NCBI RefSeq assembly: GCF_900473965.1
Contig: NZ_UCNJ01000002.1
Location: 124,001 to 188,000, forward strand
Origin: Synechococcus sp. UW179A
Lineage (GTDB): Bacteria > Cyanobacteriota > Cyanobacteriia > PCC-6307 > Cyanobiaceae
Reading direction: 5' to 3'
DNA: 64,000 nucleotides
Both the position numbers and the translations under genes were made by a program. Shown piece by piece: positions 3,475-39,058 of this stretch (position 1 is its first letter; each line of letters opens with the position of its first letter). The notes under the pieces were generated by a model. It was not told the DNA's origin and ran no database searches. It saw nothing but the letters and a program-made list of their open reading frames with translations.

Positions 3475-5823
3475 TCATTCACTAACCTCCGCGATGCCAT
3501 CAATTCGCCGAGATAGTGCACTGTTGAAGGCATGACGACATTGCTCAATCTCCAGATTCAGGCAAGGGTCCTGATCAACACAAACCTGCATCTCAGGCTG
3601 TTGTGTCACAACACCAATCCGAGTAATTGGCAGATCGTCCGTCTCAGCTAACAGCGCTTCCCAATGCCCAATGCGATCTGCCTGCACCGACACCACGATC
3701 CGACTCCCGCCTTCGGCAAAGAGAACGCGATCGATACGCAGACCCTGAACACTCAGGTCAATCTTGATTCCGAGACCCGAAGCAATCGAAGACTCCGCCA
3801 AAGCCACACCGAGACCGCCATCGCTGCAGTCATGGGCTGAACCCAGCAGGCCGCGAGTGATGGCCTCACGCACAAGGCGGCCAACCTTGGCTTCCATCTG
3901 AAGATCCGTCAGAGGTGGGCGACCTGCCAAGGAGCCTGTCATCAGTTGTTGATAGGCACTACCTGCCAGGCCCAGGCAAAGGGACTCGGCATCATCAGGG
4001 CCAACACCAATCAGGTAAATGGGATCCTGTGCCTGTCGCCATCCCAGGCCAATCACGGTCGCAATGTCGTTAACACCACCCACCATGCCGATCACGGGTG
4101 TGGGGTGAATCGGCTGAAGGGTGCCATCCTCTTTTTTGATCTCGTTGTAGAGCGAGACATTGCCACCGGTCACGGGAGTGTTGAGAGCCCTGCAGGCATC
4201 CGAGATACCGCAACATGCCTTGGCCAGCTGCCAGTAGCCCTTAGGGGTTTCAGGAGAAGGGAAATTGAGATTGTCGGTGACTGCAAGAGGTTCAGCACCA
4301 ACACAGCTCAGATTGCGTGCTGCTTCGGCAACAGCTGCCTGAGCACCCCGTTCAGGATCCAGTGCCACCCAACGGTTGGGACAATCCACCGTTGCAGCCA
4401 CTCCCTTGGTTGAGGCATCCAGTGAGCCTTCACCCTGCTGCGGACGGAGTCTGACGACTGCTGCGTCTGCAGATCCAGAAGACACCACGGTGTTCGCCAA
4501 AACCTGCTGGTCGTACTGACGATGCACCCAGCGTTTGCTCGCAATCGTGGGATCATCCAACAAACCCAGAAGACTCTGACTCCAGTCATGGCCTTGGCTT
4601 GGGAGGGGAAGATCCGCTTCCGACCACCGCCATAGCTCCTGAATCTCAGCAGGCGGCTCACTGAGCAAATCATGGTGATTGATCGGCGTGTCTTCCGCCA
4701 AAGCCCTCGAAGGGACCTCAGCAGCCACAACGCCTGCTTGAAGAACCCGAACCACAGGGTCAGCCAGGACGCGACCCACCACAGCCGCCTGTAAACCCCA
4801 GCGGCGGAAACGCTCCATCAGAGGCTCTTCGCGGCCAGCACGCACCACGAAAAGCATGCGCTCCTGCGATTCAGACAACAGGTATTCGTAAGCGGTCATG
4901 CCCTGCTCACGCGCAGGCACTTTGTCGAGATCAAGCTCGATGCCCAGATCTCCTTTGGCTGCCATCTCCGAACAGCTACAGGTGAGGCCAGCAGCGCCCA
5001 TGTCCTGAGCAGCAACCACGTCACCGCTCTGAAACGCCTCCAAACAGGCTTCAATCAACCCCTTTTCCAGAAAGGGATCTCCTACCTGCACAGCTGGACG
5101 ATCATCCAGAGAGGCGGAACTCAGCTCAGCACTGGCAAAACTGGCTCCACCCATGCCATCACGACCGGTGGTGCTGCCCACGTAAACCACGGGATTACCA
5201 ACCCCAGAAGCCCCGGATTTCACAATGTCGTCGGTCTCCATCAAACCGAGAGCCATCGCATTGACCAGAGGATTTCCGCTATAGGAGGGATCAAAAGCCA
5301 CTTCACCACCCACGGTGGGAACACCCACGCAATTGCCGTAATGGGCAATGCCAGCAACCACGCCCTGCATCAGTCCAACGTTGGCGGGATCATCCAGGGG
5401 GCCGAAACGCAAAGCATTCAGCAGAGCAATCGGACGAGCACCCATGGTGAAGATGTCGCGAAGAATTCCACCAACACCTGTTGCTGCTCCTTGAAAGGGC
5501 TCCACGGCTGAGGGATGGTTGTGGCTCTCGATCTTGAAGGCAAGCCGATGGCCTCCGCCAAGATCGACCACGCCAGCATTCTCACCAGGCCCCACCAGGA
5601 TGCGAGGCCCCTCCGTTGGGAAACCACTCAGCAGCGGTCTGGAGTTGCGATAACAGCAGTGCTCTGACCACATCACACCGAACATGCCGAGTTCAGCCCT
5701 GTTGGGGTCCCGCCCCAGCCGACGTTGAATCTCGACGTAATCCTGCTGCGTGAGCCCTTCTTGGCGGAGGGCAGCCGCGACATCAAACGTCTCAGCCACA
5801 GAAGAAGACTGGACCACAGTCAA
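3475..5823 (-). CDS. purL: Phosphoribosylformylglycinamidine synthase, PurL subunit
   Basis: This is the ATP-dependent synthetase subunit that makes FGAM from FGAR in purine synthesis. At 782 residues it is the small bacterial PurL that works with separate PurQ and PurS, neither of which is in the window. Visible motifs are [15 protein letters not shown] near residue 50, [14 protein letters not shown] near residue 98 and the paired AIR-synthase-like halves with GGVNDIA and [12 protein letters not shown] in the second half. It lies between purF downstream and the PRC-barrel gene and dnaN upstream, all on the minus strand, an order I recall from marine picocyanobacteria. Confidence 0.97.
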
Positions 5824-32692: not shown

Positions 32693-33547
32693 TTGTCCTC
32701 CGCTTCGGTCATCCTTCAGCTGATCTGTCCCGACCGTCCTGCACTCGTGAGTGAACTCGCCGGCTGGGTGGCTGCGAACGGGGGCAACATCCGCCATGCC
32801 GATCACCACACCGATTCTGGTGCCGGCCTGTTTCTCAGCAGGATTGAGTGGGATCTGGAGGGCTTCGGTCTACCGCGCCAGGCGATTGCACCAGCAGTGG
32901 AGTCACTGGCGCAACGGCTCGGGGGCGAGGCTCAGCTGCACTTCTCTGATGAACATCCCCGTGTGGCGATTCTGGTGAGCAAGCAAAGTCACTGCCTGCT
33001 TGATCTGCTCTGGCGGGCTCGCAGTGGAGAACTGCCCATGCAGGTTCCCATCGTGATTGCCAATCACCCTGATCTGGAGGGCAGCTGCAAAGAGTTCGGA
33101 GTCCCGTTTGTGCATGTGCCCGTGACTCGCGAGACCAAGGCTGAAGCTGAGCACACCATCCTTGAGCTGCTGATCGAACATCGGGTGGAGCTGGCGGTGC
33201 TGGCCAAATACATGCAGGTGCTCAGCGGTAGCTTTCTCGAGCAATTTCCCAATGTGATCAATATCCACCACTCATTTCTGCCCGCCTTCAAGGGTGCACA
33301 GCCCTATCACCGTGCCTGGGAACGGGGCGTGAAACTGATCGGTGCAACGTCCCATTACGTGACCGAGGAACTCGATGACGGCCCGATCATTGAGCAGACC
33401 ATCGCCCATGTGAGCCATCGCGATGAGGTGCAGGATCTGATCCGCAAGGGTCGTGACACCGAGCGACTCGCTTTGGCCAGGGCTCTGCGCCTTCACCTCT
33501 GCCGTCAGGTGATGGTCTATCGCGGTCGTACTGCAGTGTTCGCGTGA
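32693..33547 (+). CDS. purU: Formyltetrahydrofolate deformylase
   Basis: PurU hydrolyses 10-formyl-tetrahydrofolate to formate and tetrahydrofolate, supplying formate for PurT. The protein has 284 residues from a TTG start. The N-terminal ACT domain (VILQLICPDRPALVSELAGWV) is followed by a formyltransferase-like domain. Catalytic-site residues are seen in INIHHSFLPAFKGAQPYHRA near residue 189 and TSHYVTEELDDGPIIEQ near residue 220. Its stop overlaps the start of the next membrane gene, implying cotranscription. Confidence 0.95.
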   Translation: MSSASVILQLICPDRPALVSELAGWVAANGGNIRHADHHTDSGAGLFLSRIEWDLEGFGLPRQAIAPAVESLAQRLGGEAQLHFSDEHPRVAILVSKQSHCLLDLLWRARSGELPMQVPIVIANHPDLEGSCKEFGVPFVHVPVTRETKAEAEHTILELLIEHRVELAVLAKYMQVLSGSFLEQFPNVINIHHSFLPAFKGAQPYHRAWERGVKLIGATSHYVTEELDDGPIIEQTIAHVSHRDEVQDLIRKGRDTERLALARALRLHLCRQVMVYRGRTAVFA

Positions 33548-34803
33548 TGGTCTGGCTGGACCAGGGCCGACCGTCCCTGGCGTCTGCGCGTGGTTGGCGC
33601 TGTTTTCAGCTCGGTCTGTTTCTGCTGCCTTCGTCAGCTCTGCTGGGAAGTCTGTTGCTCTTTCCAGCGCTGTTGTTCGGCTGTTTTGGGCGTGATCGGC
33701 CCTTCTGGCGTGACCCCTGGAATGCTCCGCTGCTGCTGGCTGCAGGCCTGATGGTGCTTGGTTGCTTTGGGGCCTATGACAAGGGACTCGCCTGGGTGGG
33801 GCTGGCCAACTGGCTTCCATTTTTCTGGGGTTTCTGGGGATTTCAGCCCTATTTGATGAACCCTGAGTCCCGGCGCCGCTCAGCCCTCTGGTTGGTGGCC
33901 GGCAGTGTGCCTGTGGTGGTAACCGGTCTTGGTCAGCTGTGGTGGGGATGGCAGGGACCCTGGCAGTTGCTGGGTGGATTGATTGTGTGGTTCATGGCTG
34001 CAGGGGGTCGTCCTGAGGGGCGCCTTTCCGGTCTGTTTGATTACGCCAACATCGCTTCTGCCTGGTTGGCCCTGGTCTGGCCACTGACCCTGGCCGCCCT
34101 CGTGCAGCAGGGGTTGAACCGCTGGCGCCGTGTCGTGGTGGTGGTCCTGGCCGTGTTGGTGGTGGTTGCGTTGGTGCTCACGGAATCCCGCAATGGCTGG
34201 GGTTCATTGGTGTTGGTGGTGCCTCTTGTGCTGGGTCCACCCAGCTGGCCCTGGTTGATTCCTCTGCTGGCACTGGCACTTCTGCCTGTGCTGCTGTCCG
34301 TGCTTCCAGGGGTGCCGCTGATGTTTCAGGATCCCGCTCGGACTCTGGTGCCTGAAAGTCTCTGGGCGCGTCTCAATGACAGTCAGTACGGGGGGGAAAG
34401 GGTCCTGGCGTCCACGCGCATCAGTCAATGGAACGTTGCTGTGCAATTGATTGCTGAACGGCCTTGGCTGGGCTGGGGAGCGGCGGCGTTCTCTGTGATC
34501 TATCCCCTGCGCACCGGTCAGTGGCATGGCCATGCTCACAACCTGCCGCTGGAGCTGGCCATCAGCCATGGTCTGCCGGTGGCAGTGCTGCTGGTGGGTT
34601 TTGTCTTAGCCCTGTTGGTGGTCAGCCTGCGACGAGGACTCTCTGGCCTGTTCGACCGTGCCTGGTGGACGGCGCTGTTCGTGCTGATGGTTCTCCACGC
34701 CACAGATCTGCCCTTTTTTGACAGTCGGTTGAATATTGCCGGCTGGATTTTGTTGGCTGGGTTGCGTAGCAGCTTTAGTGAGCCGGTTAATTCAAAACAA
34801 TGA
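33547..34803 (+). CDS. O-antigen ligase/polymerase family membrane protein
   Basis: The 418-residue product has ten or more hydrophobic helices. Between them, ARLNDSQYGGERVLASTRISQW and ERPWLGWGAAAFSVIYPLR, then HGHAHNLPLELAISHGLP, match the Wzy_C/WaaL-type periplasmic loop with its conserved HN. In cyanobacteria related proteins have been labelled IctB-like, a name tied to bicarbonate, but the ligase fold fits polysaccharide assembly better. The ATG overlaps the purU stop (GTGATG); an in-frame GTG three bases earlier is the alternative. Confidence 0.85.
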   Translation: MVWLDQGRPSLASARGWRCFQLGLFLLPSSALLGSLLLFPALLFGCFGRDRPFWRDPWNAPLLLAAGLMVLGCFGAYDKGLAWVGLANWLPFFWGFWGFQPYLMNPESRRRSALWLVAGSVPVVVTGLGQLWWGWQGPWQLLGGLIVWFMAAGGRPEGRLSGLFDYANIASAWLALVWPLTLAALVQQGLNRWRRVVVVVLAVLVVVALVLTESRNGWGSLVLVVPLVLGPPSWPWLIPLLALALLPVLLSVLPGVPLMFQDPARTLVPESLWARLNDSQYGGERVLASTRISQWNVAVQLIAERPWLGWGAAAFSVIYPLRTGQWHGHAHNLPLELAISHGLPVAVLLVGFVLALLVVSLRRGLSGLFDRAWWTALFVLMVLHATDLPFFDSRLNIAGWILLAGLRSSFSEPVNSKQ

Positions 34804-34811
34804 CTCTTTCT

Positions 34812-34877
34812 GATTCATTCCACCTGGATGGAGTTCGCACATACAAGGAACATGGTGGAATGAGTCAATAGTTTTTT
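34812..34877 (+). terminator. Long-stem terminator after the ligase gene
   Basis: GATTCATTCCACC (34812-34824) pairs with GGTGGAATGAGTC (34854-34866), 13 pairs with one T-G pair, across a 29-base loop. Six T follow at 34872-34877. It starts 9 bases after the ligase stop and marks the left edge of the AT-rich calpain region. Confidence 0.6.
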
Positions 34878-34881
34878 GTCT

Positions 34882-37110
34882 TCAAGCCCAGCTCACGATG
34901 GGGTCGAGTCCATATGTGGCAAGTTCGCTCCAGCTGGCTGTGAATGTGTGATTACTACTGCCACTGCTTGATCCCCAAGGATTCACGATCGTGAATAATC
35001 CAGTGCTGGCGTTATAGGCGGTGATGGCAAAGGCATGTCCGGCCACAAAATTTCTTCGGCCGTTGCTTCCCCAGGTGTTACCGAATGATCCCAGCCACAA
35101 TGCTTTACCACCGTTAATTGCAGAAATTGCCTGAGTTTCGAATGCATTCCAGCTTGTTTGACTTCCCCAAGCGTTGGTCCAGCCATTCAGGCCTGTTCCA
35201 GAACCGCCAGTTCCTGTGTAGTTAAGAGAAACAGTTGTGGTCGTGTTTCCAGAGAGGTGTGTCAGAGCATCCATCCAACCTCCTTCTACAGCTGCATAAC
35301 TATTTTTGCTGCTGTTGCTTCCTCTCGCGAAAGCTCCTGTTTCATTGGCTTGTGCATAGCCTTTTTCAAGTAAGGCTACCCATTTCTCGCCTGTTAGGCC
35401 CCAAGACGCGTTGCCTGCAAGTGCTGTGCTGTAGCCGTTCGTACTTGGCACATAGGAATCAACTGTCACCCAAATTTCACTGAGGCTGTTGTCATAAAAA
35501 CGAACGCCGTAGGTGCCATCACCATTGTCTTTAAACATCTCTGTGATGATGCTTGAATCAGAGTCTGCATAGGAGCAAGCTGCAGCTAAGACGTAGCAGG
35601 TTCCTGCTTGTCCTTGTCTGACATCGTCAAAGTTAACTCCATCGACAAATAGATCACCCACCATTTCGTCGTAATCAAATGTCATCGCGCTTGCACTTGC
35701 GGCAGAGTCGCCCTGGACGAAGTTCGTGGGCCGATCAAGACCGCCGTACCACTTATCAACAAGTGAGTTGAGGTGAGCTTCAGTGGAGCCCTCATAGAGG
35801 TTGCCAAGACTGATACGGCTTGATTCGCCACCGGTCCACCACTGATTGGCACTGTTGCCATTGACGACTGCGTCGAAGATATAGCTTTGGTAGGAAGCGT
35901 CTGTCGCTGAAAGGTATCCACTGAGATTGGTTTCAATGGTTTGCAGGTCGCTCAGTTCTGTTGCCGTGACGCCTCCACTGGAAACATCAACCAGTAGTGA
36001 TTTGAGTTCCTGGTGGGTGAAGAGATCGTCGGTTAAAGAGATGTTGATGTTGTTTATGATTGAGCTGTTTGTGATGCCGCTGATTTTGTTTGTAATTCCA
36101 ATCTGACCATCAGCATTGAAATCTTGCCCAAAGTCAGATTCAGCTTGGTGGTATTCAGCTGAGTTGTAGGTGATGAAAGAATCACCTGTGAGATTCCAGT
36201 TTGAATTGAGCTGCCACCTGTAGAGGTCACCGTTTTGTCCCTGGTTGATGACTTCATTGATGCCGTTGATGGTTTCAGCAGCAGCAAGGGAGTGATCGTT
36301 CCAGGAGTCAGTGGTGATTTGATTGTTGTTGACAGTGATGCTGGATAGCGATTGAGAGGAAGAGTCTTTGGCAAAGAGATTTCCAGAAGAGTCTTTGACG
36401 AGGTGGATGGACCCAACTGTTTCAAGGTCAATGGTGGGTGATCCGGTTATGCCATCAGCATTGAAATCTTGCCCAAAGTCAGATTCAGCTTGATAAAGAG
36501 ATTCTCCCGTTAGCCAATCTCCATCAACGGGATCCCAATTGCTATCCATGTTGTATCTATAAAATGATTCATATAAAGAGTTTCCGAAGGCCAGTTGATT
36601 GACTTCGTTAACTTTTTCTGCGCCAATGATGCTCCAGCCGTTGGAGTCGGTGTAGTCAATGAAGTTGTACCCATCTTCGTCGTAGACATAATAATTGTCC
36701 CAGTAGTTGTAGAGGCTGGCGTTACCCTGTTCTTCAATCCATCCGTAAGAACTGTTGAATTGATTTTGTGCATTACCGCTCTGCTCTATGTTGCCGCCAT
36801 CAAATTGATGAGTTTTGCTTGTCTCAAATCCGTCCTCAGGTGTTGTTATGGAGTCGGTAATAGTTGAAGCAACTCCTCCACTATATTCTTTCTCTTCAAT
36901 CAAGTTTTGCTCATTTAGAGCCCCGTCTAGATTGATTTCAGTATCGCTGCTAATCAGGGGCAGTGCTGCATTGTTCTCTGAGTAATTGTTGATATCCTGT
37001 TCAAACCCATATCCCACATTCGAATGAATAGCTGCAGAAGACGAAGCGCTAATAATATCGTCTACTTTTCCGGAGGTCGAAGATAATTGAAGTGTATTGA
37101 GGTCTTCCAT
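34882..37110 (-). CDS. Calpain-like cysteine protease with two W_rich_C-like repeats
   Basis: The 742-residue protein has no signal peptide; the first 120 residues are Asn-, Ser- and Asp-rich and look disordered. Residues about 122-225 and 229-338 are two repeats of the W_rich_C type (GWSIIGAEKVNEVNQ, YRYNMDSNW, YRWQLNSNWNLTG), each ending in the identical AESDFGQDFNADG, an EF-hand-like calcium loop. The C-terminal domain (about 485-742) is calpain-like. Cys505 is in VRQGQAGTCYVLAA with Gln499 six residues earlier as in calpains, His692 is in AGHAFAITAYN and Asn710 is in IVNPWGSS. All three catalytic residues are present, so activity is plausible. The Asp-rich repeats suggest calcium-dependent folding and type I secretion, which is inference. 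The gene is AT-richer than its neighbours and lies alone, pointing to acquisition by transfer. Confidence 0.82.
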   Translation of the reverse strand: MEDLNTLQLSSTSGKVDDIISASSSAAIHSNVGYGFEQDINNYSENNAALPLISSDTEINLDGALNEQNLIEEKEYSGGVASTITDSITTPEDGFETSKTHQFDGGNIEQSGNAQNQFNSSYGWIEEQGNASLYNYWDNYYVYDEDGYNFIDYTDSNGWSIIGAEKVNEVNQLAFGNSLYESFYRYNMDSNWDPVDGDWLTGESLYQAESDFGQDFNADGITGSPTIDLETVGSIHLVKDSSGNLFAKDSSSQSLSSITVNNNQITTDSWNDHSLAAAETINGINEVINQGQNGDLYRWQLNSNWNLTGDSFITYNSAEYHQAESDFGQDFNADGQIGITNKISGITNSSIINNINISLTDDLFTHQELKSLLVDVSSGGVTATELSDLQTIETNLSGYLSATDASYQSYIFDAVVNGNSANQWWTGGESSRISLGNLYEGSTEAHLNSLVDKWYGGLDRPTNFVQGDSAASASAMTFDYDEMVGDLFVDGVNFDDVRQGQAGTCYVLAAACSYADSDSSIITEMFKDNGDGTYGVRFYDNSLSEIWVTVDSYVPSTNGYSTALAGNASWGLTGEKWVALLEKGYAQANETGAFARGSNSSKNSYAAVEGGWMDALTHLSGNTTTTVSLNYTGTGGSGTGLNGWTNAWGSQTSWNAFETQAISAINGGKALWLGSFGNTWGSNGRRNFVAGHAFAITAYNASTGLFTIVNPWGSSSGSSNHTFTASWSELATYGLDPIVSWA
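36107..36147. repeat. 41-base direct repeat, copy 1, inside the calpain-like gene
   Basis: This stretch is identical to 36452-36492. It encodes the end of the second W_rich_C-like repeat (QAESDFGQDFNADG). Full identity at the DNA level, including third positions, points to recent duplication or gene conversion between repeats. Confidence 0.9.
36452..36492. repeat. 41-base direct repeat, copy 2, inside the calpain-like gene
   Basis: It is identical to 36107-36147 with a 345-base offset, and encodes the end of the first W_rich_C-like repeat. Confidence 0.9.
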
Positions 37111-37462
37111 GGTTAAAAATCTATAGGTTCAATTTAATTCCATGCATTGACGATTGCATGCATTGAGTTTGACTTAATCTCAGGTTGTGATCTGTGACTG
37201 AGATCCACTACTCCTGTGATCTTGATCACAGATTTCAAATAACCGTTTTTAGTTTGCTGTCGGACTTCGCCCCTTGTGGAAGTGTTCTCTGTAATCAGCC
37301 TGAAAAAACGGTGAGAGGCTGATGGTCTTGGCTGAGATGTGCGACTGAATTGACCAGTTTTTGGGTGCCTTTCAAGGTGAAACTTTTGTCTTTTTAAATA
37401 CGGCATGACAATTGTAGTTTCAGATTTCATCAGGCTTCTAGGTGTTTTTACTTGTGCTTTTT
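37111..37462. other. AT-rich gap upstream of the calpain-like gene
   Basis: No convincing gene is present. The gap holds a CRP-type palindrome (37214-37231), a direct repeat CATGCATTGA at 37141-37150 and 37157-37166, and a hairpin TCAGCCT/AGGCTGA at about 37296-37322. A weak TATAGAT (minus strand, about 37123-37129) is close to the start codon. A 98-codon minus-strand frame at 37134-37430 looks like chance. Confidence 0.6.
37214..37231. promoter_or_regulatory. CRP-type binding site, perfect palindrome
   Basis: TGTGA-TCTTGA-TCACA at 37215-37230 is an exact match to the CRP consensus, and the symmetry extends by one more base on each side. It is centred about 112 bases upstream of the calpain-like start. 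Cyanobacterial cAMP receptor proteins (SYCRP1 type) bind this sequence. Regulation of the calpain-like gene by such a factor is inferred. Confidence 0.55.
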
Positions 37463-39058
37463 TTAACTGATCGACTTCTCTCGATCTTTAATCAGCCGCT
37501 CCTTGCTTAAAGGACCGTTGAGGTGCCCCCAAGGTAGCTCTGATTCGGTATCCCAAACGTCGTGCACGACATGTTCCCAGCTTGCGGGTAAAGGCAGAGT
37601 GACGCCCCCGCTCTGGGCTTTTGGAAGATCGCCTGCTAGCGCCGCTCTGTAGGCCTTCTTCCAACCCCCGAGGCTTTCCTGTGATCCTCGGACTGCGGCG
37701 ATGACTGGTGCCAGGCGGCGGTCACTGCGGGAGAGCAAAGCCTGGATCACACTCCAGCCGTAACTCTCGGGCCGCAGATCAATCCCCTTTGGCTTCAGGC
37801 GTTTGGCCAGTCGTTTGAGGCGTTTGTCGGCTTCCGGTCTCACGCCCTGCCATTGGAACGGGGTTTGAGCCTTAGGGACGAAAGTGCTGACGCCCAGGGT
37901 GAAACGCAAGCCAGGGGTGCTCTTCTTGAGCTGAAGCAACAGATCCGCGGTTGATTCCACATCCTCCTCCTGTTCACTGGGCAGCCCCACCATCCCGTAG
38001 AGCTTGAGGGAGCGGAGACCCCCGTCTTTGGCATGGCGCGCAGCGGCGCTGATCTCCTCGTTGCTGAGTTTTTTGTTCACCACCTGGCGCATGCGTTCGC
38101 TGCCGCTTTCGATGGCGATTGTGAGTGATTTGCTGCCGCGCCGGGCCAGTCCGCTGGCAAGCTCCGTGGTCACGGTGGCTGCGCGCACTGAACTCACACT
38201 CACCCGCACATCATCAAAACGGTCATGGCCCAGCCAGCGGAGCAGGTCTGCGAACTGTGGATGCTGAGTCACGGATGCACCTAGCAGTCCCAGCCTGCGC
38301 GTTGCCACCAGACCTTTTTCAACCGCCGGGATCAGGCCATCGTCTAGAGACGGTGTGCGGAAGGGAAGCGTGAGATAACTGGCCAGGCAGAAGCGGCACA
38401 GTTCCGGGCAGCTGCGGACCACCTCCACCATGTGGATATCGGGCCAGGCGGATTCGGGGGTGATCACCGTTGAATGGCTGAGGCTGTTACCGCGCCAGGT
38501 CTGCTTGGTGATCGTTGCTGGCAGATCTGCTTCGATCGGGTCGATGCTTTGCAGACTGCCGTCATTGCTGTAGCGGGGGGCGTAAAGCGATGGCACATAA
38601 ATCCCAGGCACCTGAGCCAACCGCCGCAGGCGCACGGATCGTGCTTCAGAACGCACCTCTTGAAGCGCGTCGATGAAGCTGGGCAGCAGTTCTTCGCCGT
38701 CGCCCAGCAGGATCACATCGAAAAAGGGAGCCAGCGGCTCAGGGTTTGCTGTGAGCACAGGACCGCCACCGAACACGATTGGATCCTGATCGGTGCGTTG
38801 TTCGCTCCAGATGGGAATCCGTTGCTGCTCCAGCAGATCCAGCAGCACCGGACCATCCAGTTCCCAGCTGAGGGAGAGTCCGAACAGATCGCAGTGTCGA
38901 TGCGGTGGATCGCACTGATCGGTGAACAGGCGACGCACATCCAGATCGGACCGCATGGCCAGAGTCGCCCAAACGATTTGATAGCCGAGGCTGGTGATCC
39001 CCACCGTGTATGTGCTGGGAAAGGCCATCACCGCGCGCAGGGCTCCGGCTTCCGGCAC
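37463..39058 (-). CDS. B12-binding-type radical SAM protein
   Basis: The 531-residue protein carries a cobalamin-binding-like N-terminal region (DLFGLSLSWELDGPVLLDLL and FDVILLGDGEELLPSFIDAL) and a radical SAM core with the 4Fe-4S motif CPELCRFC near residue 217. GSERMRQVVNKKLSNEEI and LYGMVGLPSEQEEDV follow. It matches cyanobacterial proteins related to the tRNA/rRNA-modifying and B12 radical SAM families; the substrate is unknown. The annotated GTG start may be short: family-like sequence (NQETLLFDPA) continues upstream in frame, but the only start there is CTG. Confidence 0.87.
   Translation of the reverse strand: MPEAGALRAVMAFPSTYTVGITSLGYQIVWATLAMRSDLDVRRLFTDQCDPPHRHCDLFGLSLSWELDGPVLLDLLEQQRIPIWSEQRTDQDPIVFGGGPVLTANPEPLAPFFDVILLGDGEELLPSFIDALQEVRSEARSVRLRRLAQVPGIYVPSLYAPRYSNDGSLQSIDPIEADLPATITKQTWRGNSLSHSTVITPESAWPDIHMVEVVRSCPELCRFCLASYLTLPFRTPSLDDGLIPAVEKGLVATRRLGLLGASVTQHPQFADLLRWLGHDRFDDVRVSVSSVRAATVTTELASGLARRGSKSLTIAIESGSERMRQVVNKKLSNEEISAAARHAKDGGLRSLKLYGMVGLPSEQEEDVESTADLLLQLKKSTPGLRFTLGVSTFVPKAQTPFQWQGVRPEADKRLKRLAKRLKPKGIDLRPESYGWSVIQALLSRSDRRLAPVIAAVRGSQESLGGWKKAYRAALAGDLPKAQSGGVTLPLPASWEHVVHDVWDTESELPWGHLNGPLSKERLIKDREKSIS

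Follow-up and report, generated by a model that had tools for sequence, protein, structure and literature searches.

What does a calpain-family protease do in a unicellular cyanobacterium, and how did its gene come to lie between two core genes? The locus that raises the question is a 64,000-nt stretch of Synechococcus sp. UW179A (contig NZ_UCNJ01000002.1, positions 124,001 to 188,000; hereafter the window), in which a complete open reading frame (ORF) of 742 aa, 34882-37110 on the minus strand, encodes a calpain catalytic domain (CysPc) behind two tryptophan-rich W_rich_C repeats. Our preferred answer, to which we give a probability of about 0.6, is that the product, a cysteine endopeptidase of the calpain family (C2), is regulated by a cAMP receptor protein (CRP), exported, dependent on calcium and at work outside the cell; we infer export, calcium dependence, activity and CRP binding from the evidence below. 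Handles in G, L and C denote genomes, loci and contigs, and publications are cited by PubMed Central (PMC) number.

A calpain core with one calcium site

The earlier note on this DNA, made from the letters alone, had proposed a calpain triad Cys505/His692/Asn710 with oxyanion Gln499 in a protein with two tryptophan-rich repeats, and all of this held up; it had left the strand of the ORF unstated. The numbering is exact, with the four residues in calpain order (Q499, C505, H692, N710), and the protein matches Peptidase_C2/CysPc (PF00648; E 5.4e-14, residues 487-716) and W_rich_C (PF07483; E 1.8e-17, 63.7 bits, two stretches), both above the curated cut-offs of Pfam. At E up to 1, Pfam gave no C2-like, EF-hand or penta-EF-hand match in the 742-aa protein, and NCBIfam no match. 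Residue conservation (Table 1) was read from an alignment, A3, which joins the window protein to 53 others: the 54 non-redundant rows of L010-L088 less L082, which a contig end truncates. The A3 profile matches m-calpain at 3.3e-27. An AlphaFold2 model of residues 339-742, built from a 54-sequence alignment, has a predicted local distance difference test score (pLDDT) of 93.6 and a predicted template modelling score (pTM) of 0.93, and its Foldseek matches in the PDB with E up to 0.001 are calpains in 32 cases out of 32. By VIA-align, m-calpain in complex with calpastatin ranks first (3bow_A; Z 22.2, root mean square deviation 3.1, 243 aligned). Scores are similar for entries whose titles call them calcium-bound or calcium-dependent (1kxr and 3df0, Z 21.9; 1mdw, 20.4), against Z 13.4-14.9 for m-calpain and mu-like calpain entries 1df0, 1kfu, 1kfx, 1u5i and 1qxp, which we take to be calcium-free structures; one human calpain-9 catalytic domain (1ziv, Z 14.5) is also in the lower group. 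From this difference the protease model looks closer to the assembled calpain arrangement. The N-terminal helices (model residues 1-63) fall outside most calpain structural matches. A full-length model again finds calpains first in the fold search; with a pLDDT of 60.4 its repeats and N-terminus are unreliable, and no fold is therefore claimed for these parts.

The likeness to the classical human and rat calpain cores thus covers the CysPc fold, the Cys-His-Asn residues, the oxyanion Gln and calcium site 1. When the A3 profile is aligned with m-calpain, Asp496 and Glu575 fall on Asp96 and Glu175 of site 1 (residues of sites 1 and 2 as given in PMC4631099); by sequence this site is kept in CysPc and predicted to bind calcium. 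Unlike the classical enzymes, the window protein has neither C2-like nor penta-EF-hand match, and carries Ser716 at the site-2 position Glu292, a column whose eight commonest symbols over 54 rows do not include Glu; calcium site 2, as judged from this one of its four residues, is probably missing. Calcium activation is plausible, and is better supported by the CysPc site (D496/E575) than by the loops of the W_rich_C repeats. The protease part is under purifying selection: residues 471-742, compared with the ortholog in G206, give a nonsynonymous divergence (dN) of 0.063 and a synonymous divergence (dS) of 0.451, which makes the ORF more than a chance reading frame. The protein is acidic (isoelectric point, pI, 4.05; 14 Lys and 9 Arg in 742 residues) and has 2 Cys.

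A promoter site of calpain and other protease genes

The window calpain gene is preceded by a perfect palindrome of the form TGTGAN6TCACA, the cyanobacterial CRP site (PMC2633013). Of 15 calpain genes of its kin, from 12 genomes, 11 have the exact palindrome within 300 bp upstream, 74-155 bp from the start; they belong to 8 genomes and are those of the window, G204 (three genes), G207, G056, UW140 (two), UW105, L036 and L079. The count omits two genes that lack their 5' ends (L003, L011), one with an unclear start (L084) and two that are copies of counted genes (L007, L086). The control consisted of 130 further ORFs, each 150 aa or longer, from 18 stretches (the window and kin loci; L231-L239, picked for sites or exporter, excluded), of which one has the palindrome, and that ORF is divergent from the UW105 calpain. 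The Fisher value for this enrichment (1.6e-12) is descriptive only, because it treats tandem copies, and likewise the UW140 pair, as if they were independent. Four of 74 contig-database loci carry the exact site: three are Synechococcus (L036, L062, L086) and the fourth, L079, is a cyanobacterial metagenome-assembled genome (MAG) grouping with Synechococcaceae in our tree. Nine such promoters share 18 further columns of at least 0.9 bits (shuffles: mean 1.1, maximum 5), a second element TTGA-N6-TCA included; some of the nine may be copies of each other. Both calpain lineages described below carry the palindrome. Two genomes have calpain genes in tandem, three in G204 and two, both of 668 aa, in UW140 (L180, L185), with a CRP-type site before each. 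A putative 98-aa ORF (37134-37430, minus) lies 5' of the window calpain and overlaps the site; in G206 this frame is open too, with the same end and varying residues.

In the whole genome of UW179A exact sites are more numerous than for a reversed control (12 vs 4). Besides those at the window calpain and at a tandem array of S8 subtilase ORFs (Table 1), they stand 91 bp upstream of a pilin-like ORF (N_methyl; type IV pilin-like), 88 bp upstream of a 217-aa ORF adjoining a CHAT ORF and a CHASE2-adenylate cyclase, 91-101 bp upstream of ORFs of 150, 212 and 269 aa, and before a 419-aa ORF (5 bp, start uncertain) and an ORF resembling glutathione S-transferase (162 bp); of the two that remain, one is flanked by short ORFs only and one lies within a gene. 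A stretch with two of these sites (L238, contig C32) also holds small ORFs at 1678-1917 and 5021-5380, which we assume to be similar to Nif11-type leader peptides. On contig C24 a CRP-family ORF, L242, is separated from the CHASE2-adenylate cyclase by about 7 kb. In G056 a calpain, CHAT, ShlB, a cyclase and a CRP-like ORF, the last recognised by eye, sit within about 9.3 kb. Together, the promoter site common to most kin calpains suggests a controlled set of proteases acting outside the cell, and an exported, calcium-dependent calpain placed in such a CRP-controlled set with other proteases is, we infer, the most economical account. In the literature searched, calpain, cyanobacteria and cAMP receptor protein were not treated together, and no paper combined three of Synechococcus, CRP regulon, adenylate cyclase and exoprotease.

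We propose that the system could work as follows. A cAMP-loaded CRP-family protein would switch the calpain gene on along with the subtilases, the type IV pilin-like gene and others; the protease would leave the cell without a Sec signal, by a type I system. Outside, plentiful calcium would fill site 1 and help to align the two half-domains into an active papain-like cleft, while the W_rich_C repeats could hold the enzyme on a surface or substrate. Exchange of repeats would change the target as the catalytic core stayed constrained, and the enzyme would in the end cleave proteins of surfaces or neighbours, to gain nutrients or to compete. A possible exporter under nucleotide control lies outside the window, at 230.9-235.2 kb of contig C2 (L239:2989-7204), where an HlyD-like ORF adjoins a 978-aa ATP-binding cassette (ABC) exporter with an N-terminal cyclic-nucleotide-binding match. 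Secretion also fits, by analogy, the gene that G203 carries at the same chromosomal slot: a single 1961-aa ORF (L182:1909-7791, minus) with M10, S8, cadherin-like, five W_rich_C and P-domain matches. Judged from its length and domains this is likely EAR17767.1 of Synechococcus WH7805, described in PMC4949707 as a protein of 1961 aa that has a maximum of three peptidase domains, besides two cadherin repeats and five domains rich in tryptophan, and makes up 0.67% of the WH7805 exoproteome.

Several observations weigh against a CRP-regulated, exported calpain. (i), the palindrome is changed at one base in the closest ortholog, that of G206, and has two mismatches in G064, three in L010 and four in L085 (start codon uncertain), while one-mismatch palindromes in the window are as frequent as chance predicts (3 vs 2.82 expected). 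(ii), the exact palindrome is absent at all seven W_rich_C genes tested from other genomes, of which five are subtilases and one is the M10/S8 gene of G203, itself counted among the subtilases; the shared promoter therefore joins calpains with subtilases that lack W_rich_C, not with W_rich_C ones. (iii), the regulator is a candidate: L242 is taken for it on the strength of its PF13545 match and its helix ARETASRTLSKLR, which we take to be a CRP-type recognition helix. (iv), the genome's TIGR01842 and TIGR01843 matches fall below the curated cut-offs, and four of nine scanned W_rich_C ORFs of the genus (L209, L211, L212, L213) have no protease match. (v), we noticed no signal peptide in the calpain, for which no Sec or type I signal predictor was run, and a cytosolic location has been argued for other cyanobacterial calpains (PMC9380684).

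This last point opens an alternative in which a cytosolic calpain trims the cell's own proteins and the W_rich_C repeats bind an internal partner. That no signal peptide was noticed agrees with it, as do the reasoning of PMC9380684, which places other cyanobacterial calpains in the cytosol from their absent transmembrane helices, and the mostly intracellular habit of eukaryotic calpains (PMC4631099). Yet an acidic W_rich_C protein of pI 4.05 resembles the exoprotein with the likely counterpart in the G203 slot, exported chitinases without signal peptides are described in PMC4949707, and the promoter class is common to the pilin-like gene and subtilases; a cytosolic role is, in our judgement, improbable.

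Repeat exchange, pre-domain and lineages

The W_rich_C repeats, whose EF-hand-like loops are DxNxDG loops similar to EF-hands by sequence only (the low-confidence model places a helix, residues 202-211, ahead of the first), have a history of their own. Along the gene, DNA identity to the G206 ortholog is 0.78-0.98 in 100-bp bins outside repeat 2, and drops to 0.59, 0.48, 0.49 and 0.69 in the repeat-2 bins starting at 36100, 36200, 36300 and 36400 (the mostly intergenic bin at 34800 has 0.57). In amino acid sequence, repeat 2 of the window shares 63% identity with repeats on a 2659-aa subtilase ORF that G206 carries elsewhere, 60% with repeats on a G169 subtilase ORF, and 42% with its positional counterpart in the G206 ortholog. 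That counterpart is nearest, by nucleotides and among the loci compared, to a G101 subtilase ORF. On these comparisons repeat 2 is an exchanged segment, the window's copy being nearest to subtilase-borne repeats among the loci compared. S8 subtilase domains also occur on five of the nine scanned genus W_rich_C ORFs (L182, L206, L207, L208, L210); L211 and L213 score below the W_rich_C cut-off, and the scan excluded the W_rich_C ORFs of G218, G202, G211, G215, G212 contig 12 and G169 contig 15. W_rich_C repeats on a multidomain protease are shared with YP_382882.1, a marine Synechococcus subtilase (PMC2605481), and EAR17767.1 (PMC4949707), in which the catalytic domains are serine (and metallo) rather than calpain; in the literature searched, W_rich_C (PF07483) came up in one paper, with a subtilase (PMC2605481).

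Between repeats and CysPc lies a pre-domain that no Pfam or NCBIfam family names (E up to 1) and for which the PDB, searched by sequence, had no match under E 0.44. It consists of helices followed by a N-[QA]-W-[WY]-T-G / LGNL / K-W stretch, and its roughly 125 residues are conserved in six sequences, the window's and five relatives' (G064 is gapped in the first part). Contig-database loci are unfit to test this conservation because they were partly found by a pattern inside the pre-domain. Among loci found by PF00648 alone (the best 27 new loci of a phylum scan) it is present in 19: in all 19 of the same class, four weakly (E 4e-6 to 2e-4), and in none of the 8 outside it. In alignment A5 (38 of the 54 A3 rows, 16 proteobacterial or unlabelled rows having been dropped), EF-hand_6 and EF-hand_1 each match 3 of 38 pre-domains weakly (best E 0.0098), EF-hand_5 matches one and NMB0537_N 7 (best 0.022); the window's own pre-domain has none of these.

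The earlier note called it unusual for a calpain to be joined to calcium-loop repeats in a unicellular marine cyanobacterium, a word that needs tempering. Counting the own genome each time, the PF00648 cut-off is exceeded in 6/31 genus, 5/201 family and 60/386 phylum genomes (91/386 of the phylum at E up to 0.001), and cyanobacterial calpains have been published (PMC9380684, PMC4631099). Nor is the joining of W_rich_C to a calpain unique to the window: the order W_rich_C, pre-domain, CysPc recurs in the G206 ortholog and in the single-cell genome Prochlorococcus AG-363-G03 (L011, cut at its 5' end). Over pre-domain plus CysPc, L011 is 50% identical in best segments and L010, a lake MAG with three PPC stretches instead of W_rich_C, 56%; in L012, a 2364-aa ORF, the module lies near the N-terminus with Calx-beta and RTX-type matches behind. 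The published PPC-calpains of Calothrix, Fischerella, Scytonema and others (PMC9380684, PMC4631099) are alike in their C-terminal C2 domain behind accessory domains, their sparse distribution and the kept calcium site 1, and the helical pre-domain is shared, as tested in the 19 same-class loci; in the window protein W_rich_C replaces PPC.

In a tree of 77 rows (22 from genome searches; root arbitrary) a branch with support 100/100 has on one side the window, G206, L010, L011, L036, G064, Pseudomonadota, one Nitrospinota and two unlabelled rows, and on the other the remaining cyanobacterial calpains, two Planctomycetota rows and the calpains of G204, G207, UW105, UW140 and G056. The window's six-row group has support 96/84, with its inner order open and G064 a long branch. 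The catalytic half accordingly sides in the tree with Pseudomonadota and a few picocyanobacteria, away from the calpains of filamentous cyanobacteria and the other calpains of the genus. As the tree has it, the window calpain belongs to a lineage apart from the one commoner in the genus, and the presence of both in a single genus suggests transfer, or else an old duplication followed by loss. A viral origin was rejected, as 0 of 600 pattern-matching IMG/VR stretches encode a relative. So was plasmid carriage: PLSDB gave one record only, a Calothrix plasmid (AP025019.1, 384,612 bp) with a calpain gene (L061), whereas PMC4631099 had reported no calpains on plasmids.

Patchy presence (6/31 genomes), repeat exchange and tandem copies in G204 (3) and UW140 (2) could also mark an attack enzyme, released or displayed against competitors or grazers, with the repeats exchanged in an arms race over target surfaces. 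The promoter common to subtilases and the pilin-like gene would suit such a role, and so would the protease-, adhesion- and haemolysin-like exoproteins that rise in Synechococcus WH8102 in co-culture with a heterotroph (PMC4949707). Since nutrient scavenging predicts the same pattern, and no immunity-like gene was seen beside the window calpain, whose neighbours are core genes, we consider a dedicated weapon unlikely.

Beyond the exported, calcium-dependent calpain itself we offer a wider proposal, tentatively: that the exported proteases of picocyanobacteria form a battery under cAMP/CRP control in which catalytic classes can replace each other, two separately acquired calpain lineages and subtilases standing behind one promoter design and W_rich_C targeting cassettes passing between cysteine, serine and metallo proteases. 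If so, a cell could re-aim an exoprotease with its catalytic core untouched, repeats would have moved between unrelated protease classes, and cAMP signalling would control exoproteolysis in unicellular cyanobacteria of this group. Such a CRP regulon would conflict with the picture in the literature, in which cyanobacteria without crp are mostly marine species (PMC2633013). A bacterial calpain, of a group whose function is described as unknown (PMC9380684), would gain a testable role (exported, calcium-dependent, CRP-induced) with a candidate regulator and co-regulated partners.

The chromosomal slot and coordinates

The calpain gene is the sole PF00648 locus and the sole W_rich_C gene of its genome (profile search, E up to 0.001), and it sits in an insert. 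Of its neighbours, the radical SAM gene is matched in 31/31 genus genomes (in 29 with an identity of at least 80%, in the other 2 through nothing closer than a paralog of about 35%) and the O-antigen ligase gene in 28/31. They converge 16-58 bp apart in 25 of the 28 genomes that have both on one contig (own included), and the gap widens to 2665 bp in UW179A, 2676 bp in G206 and 6057 bp in G203. The earlier claim of an insertion between core genes is borne out by this spacing, as is that of a different base composition: the gene has 46.7% GC against 56.8% for the whole window, and the lowest of 64 bins, 36001-37000, has 43.5%. Its statement that the gene stands alone is right for coding neighbours; the promoter site, the repeat exchange and the pre-domain lay beyond its view, and its interpretation as a whole is thus upheld in part, for family, residues, repeats and insertion. 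An insert found at the site in 2/28 genomes, AT-rich and with a palindrome base changed in G206, might be mere cargo that a variable site has taken up, decaying or neutral and with no present function; with a protease dN/dS of about 0.14 and catalytic residues intact in both orthologs, we find this very hard to credit.

Table 1. Features of the calpain locus (window coordinates) and, in the last line, a further set of CRP-type sites in the same genome
Feature	Position	Strand	Remark
Insert between convergent 3' ends of two core genes	34804..37462		from neighbour matches
Wzy_C (O-antigen ligase) gene	33544-34803	+	flanks insert
Radical SAM gene	37463-39058	-	flanks insert
Calpain-family protease ORF, 742 aa	34882..37110	-	ATG at 37110; stop codon ends at 34882
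Perfect CRP-type palindrome TGTGATCAAGATCACA (TGTGAN6TCACA)	37215..37230	-	104 bp upstream of ATG
Second promoter element, fixed spacing	37195..37207	-	here TGGA-N6-TCA, consensus TTGA-N6-TCA; coordinates hand-counted
W_rich_C repeat 1	36442..36645	-	Pfam profile positions 35-105; repeat probably starts further 5'
W_rich_C repeat 2	36097..36408	-	Pfam; exchanged cassette about 36100-36450
Conserved pre-domain without family name, residues about 346-470	35701..36075	-	alignment, model
CysPc catalytic domain, residues 487-742	34885..35652	-	Pfam 487-716; AlphaFold2 model and fold match
Codon of Asp496, calcium-site-1 side chain	35623..35625	-	kept 53/54 in A3
Codon of oxyanion Gln499	35614..35616	-	kept 54/54 in A3
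Codon of catalytic Cys505	35596..35598	-	kept 54/54 in A3
Codon of Glu575, calcium-site-1 side chain	35386..35388	-	kept 52/54 in A3
Codon of catalytic His692	35035..35037	-	kept 54/54 in A3
Codon of catalytic Asn710	34981..34983	-	kept 53/54 in A3
CRP-type sites, own genome C9, at three tandem S8 ORFs (first cut by contig start)	L232:3-6627		site 88 bp upstream of both whole ORFs

With a calpain in UW179A and G206 and the M10/S8 ORF in G203, the slot has received two unrelated W_rich_C proteases. The G203 gene was rejected as a source of the window calpain: their repeats are about 31% identical and nucleotide matches reach only E 0.95.

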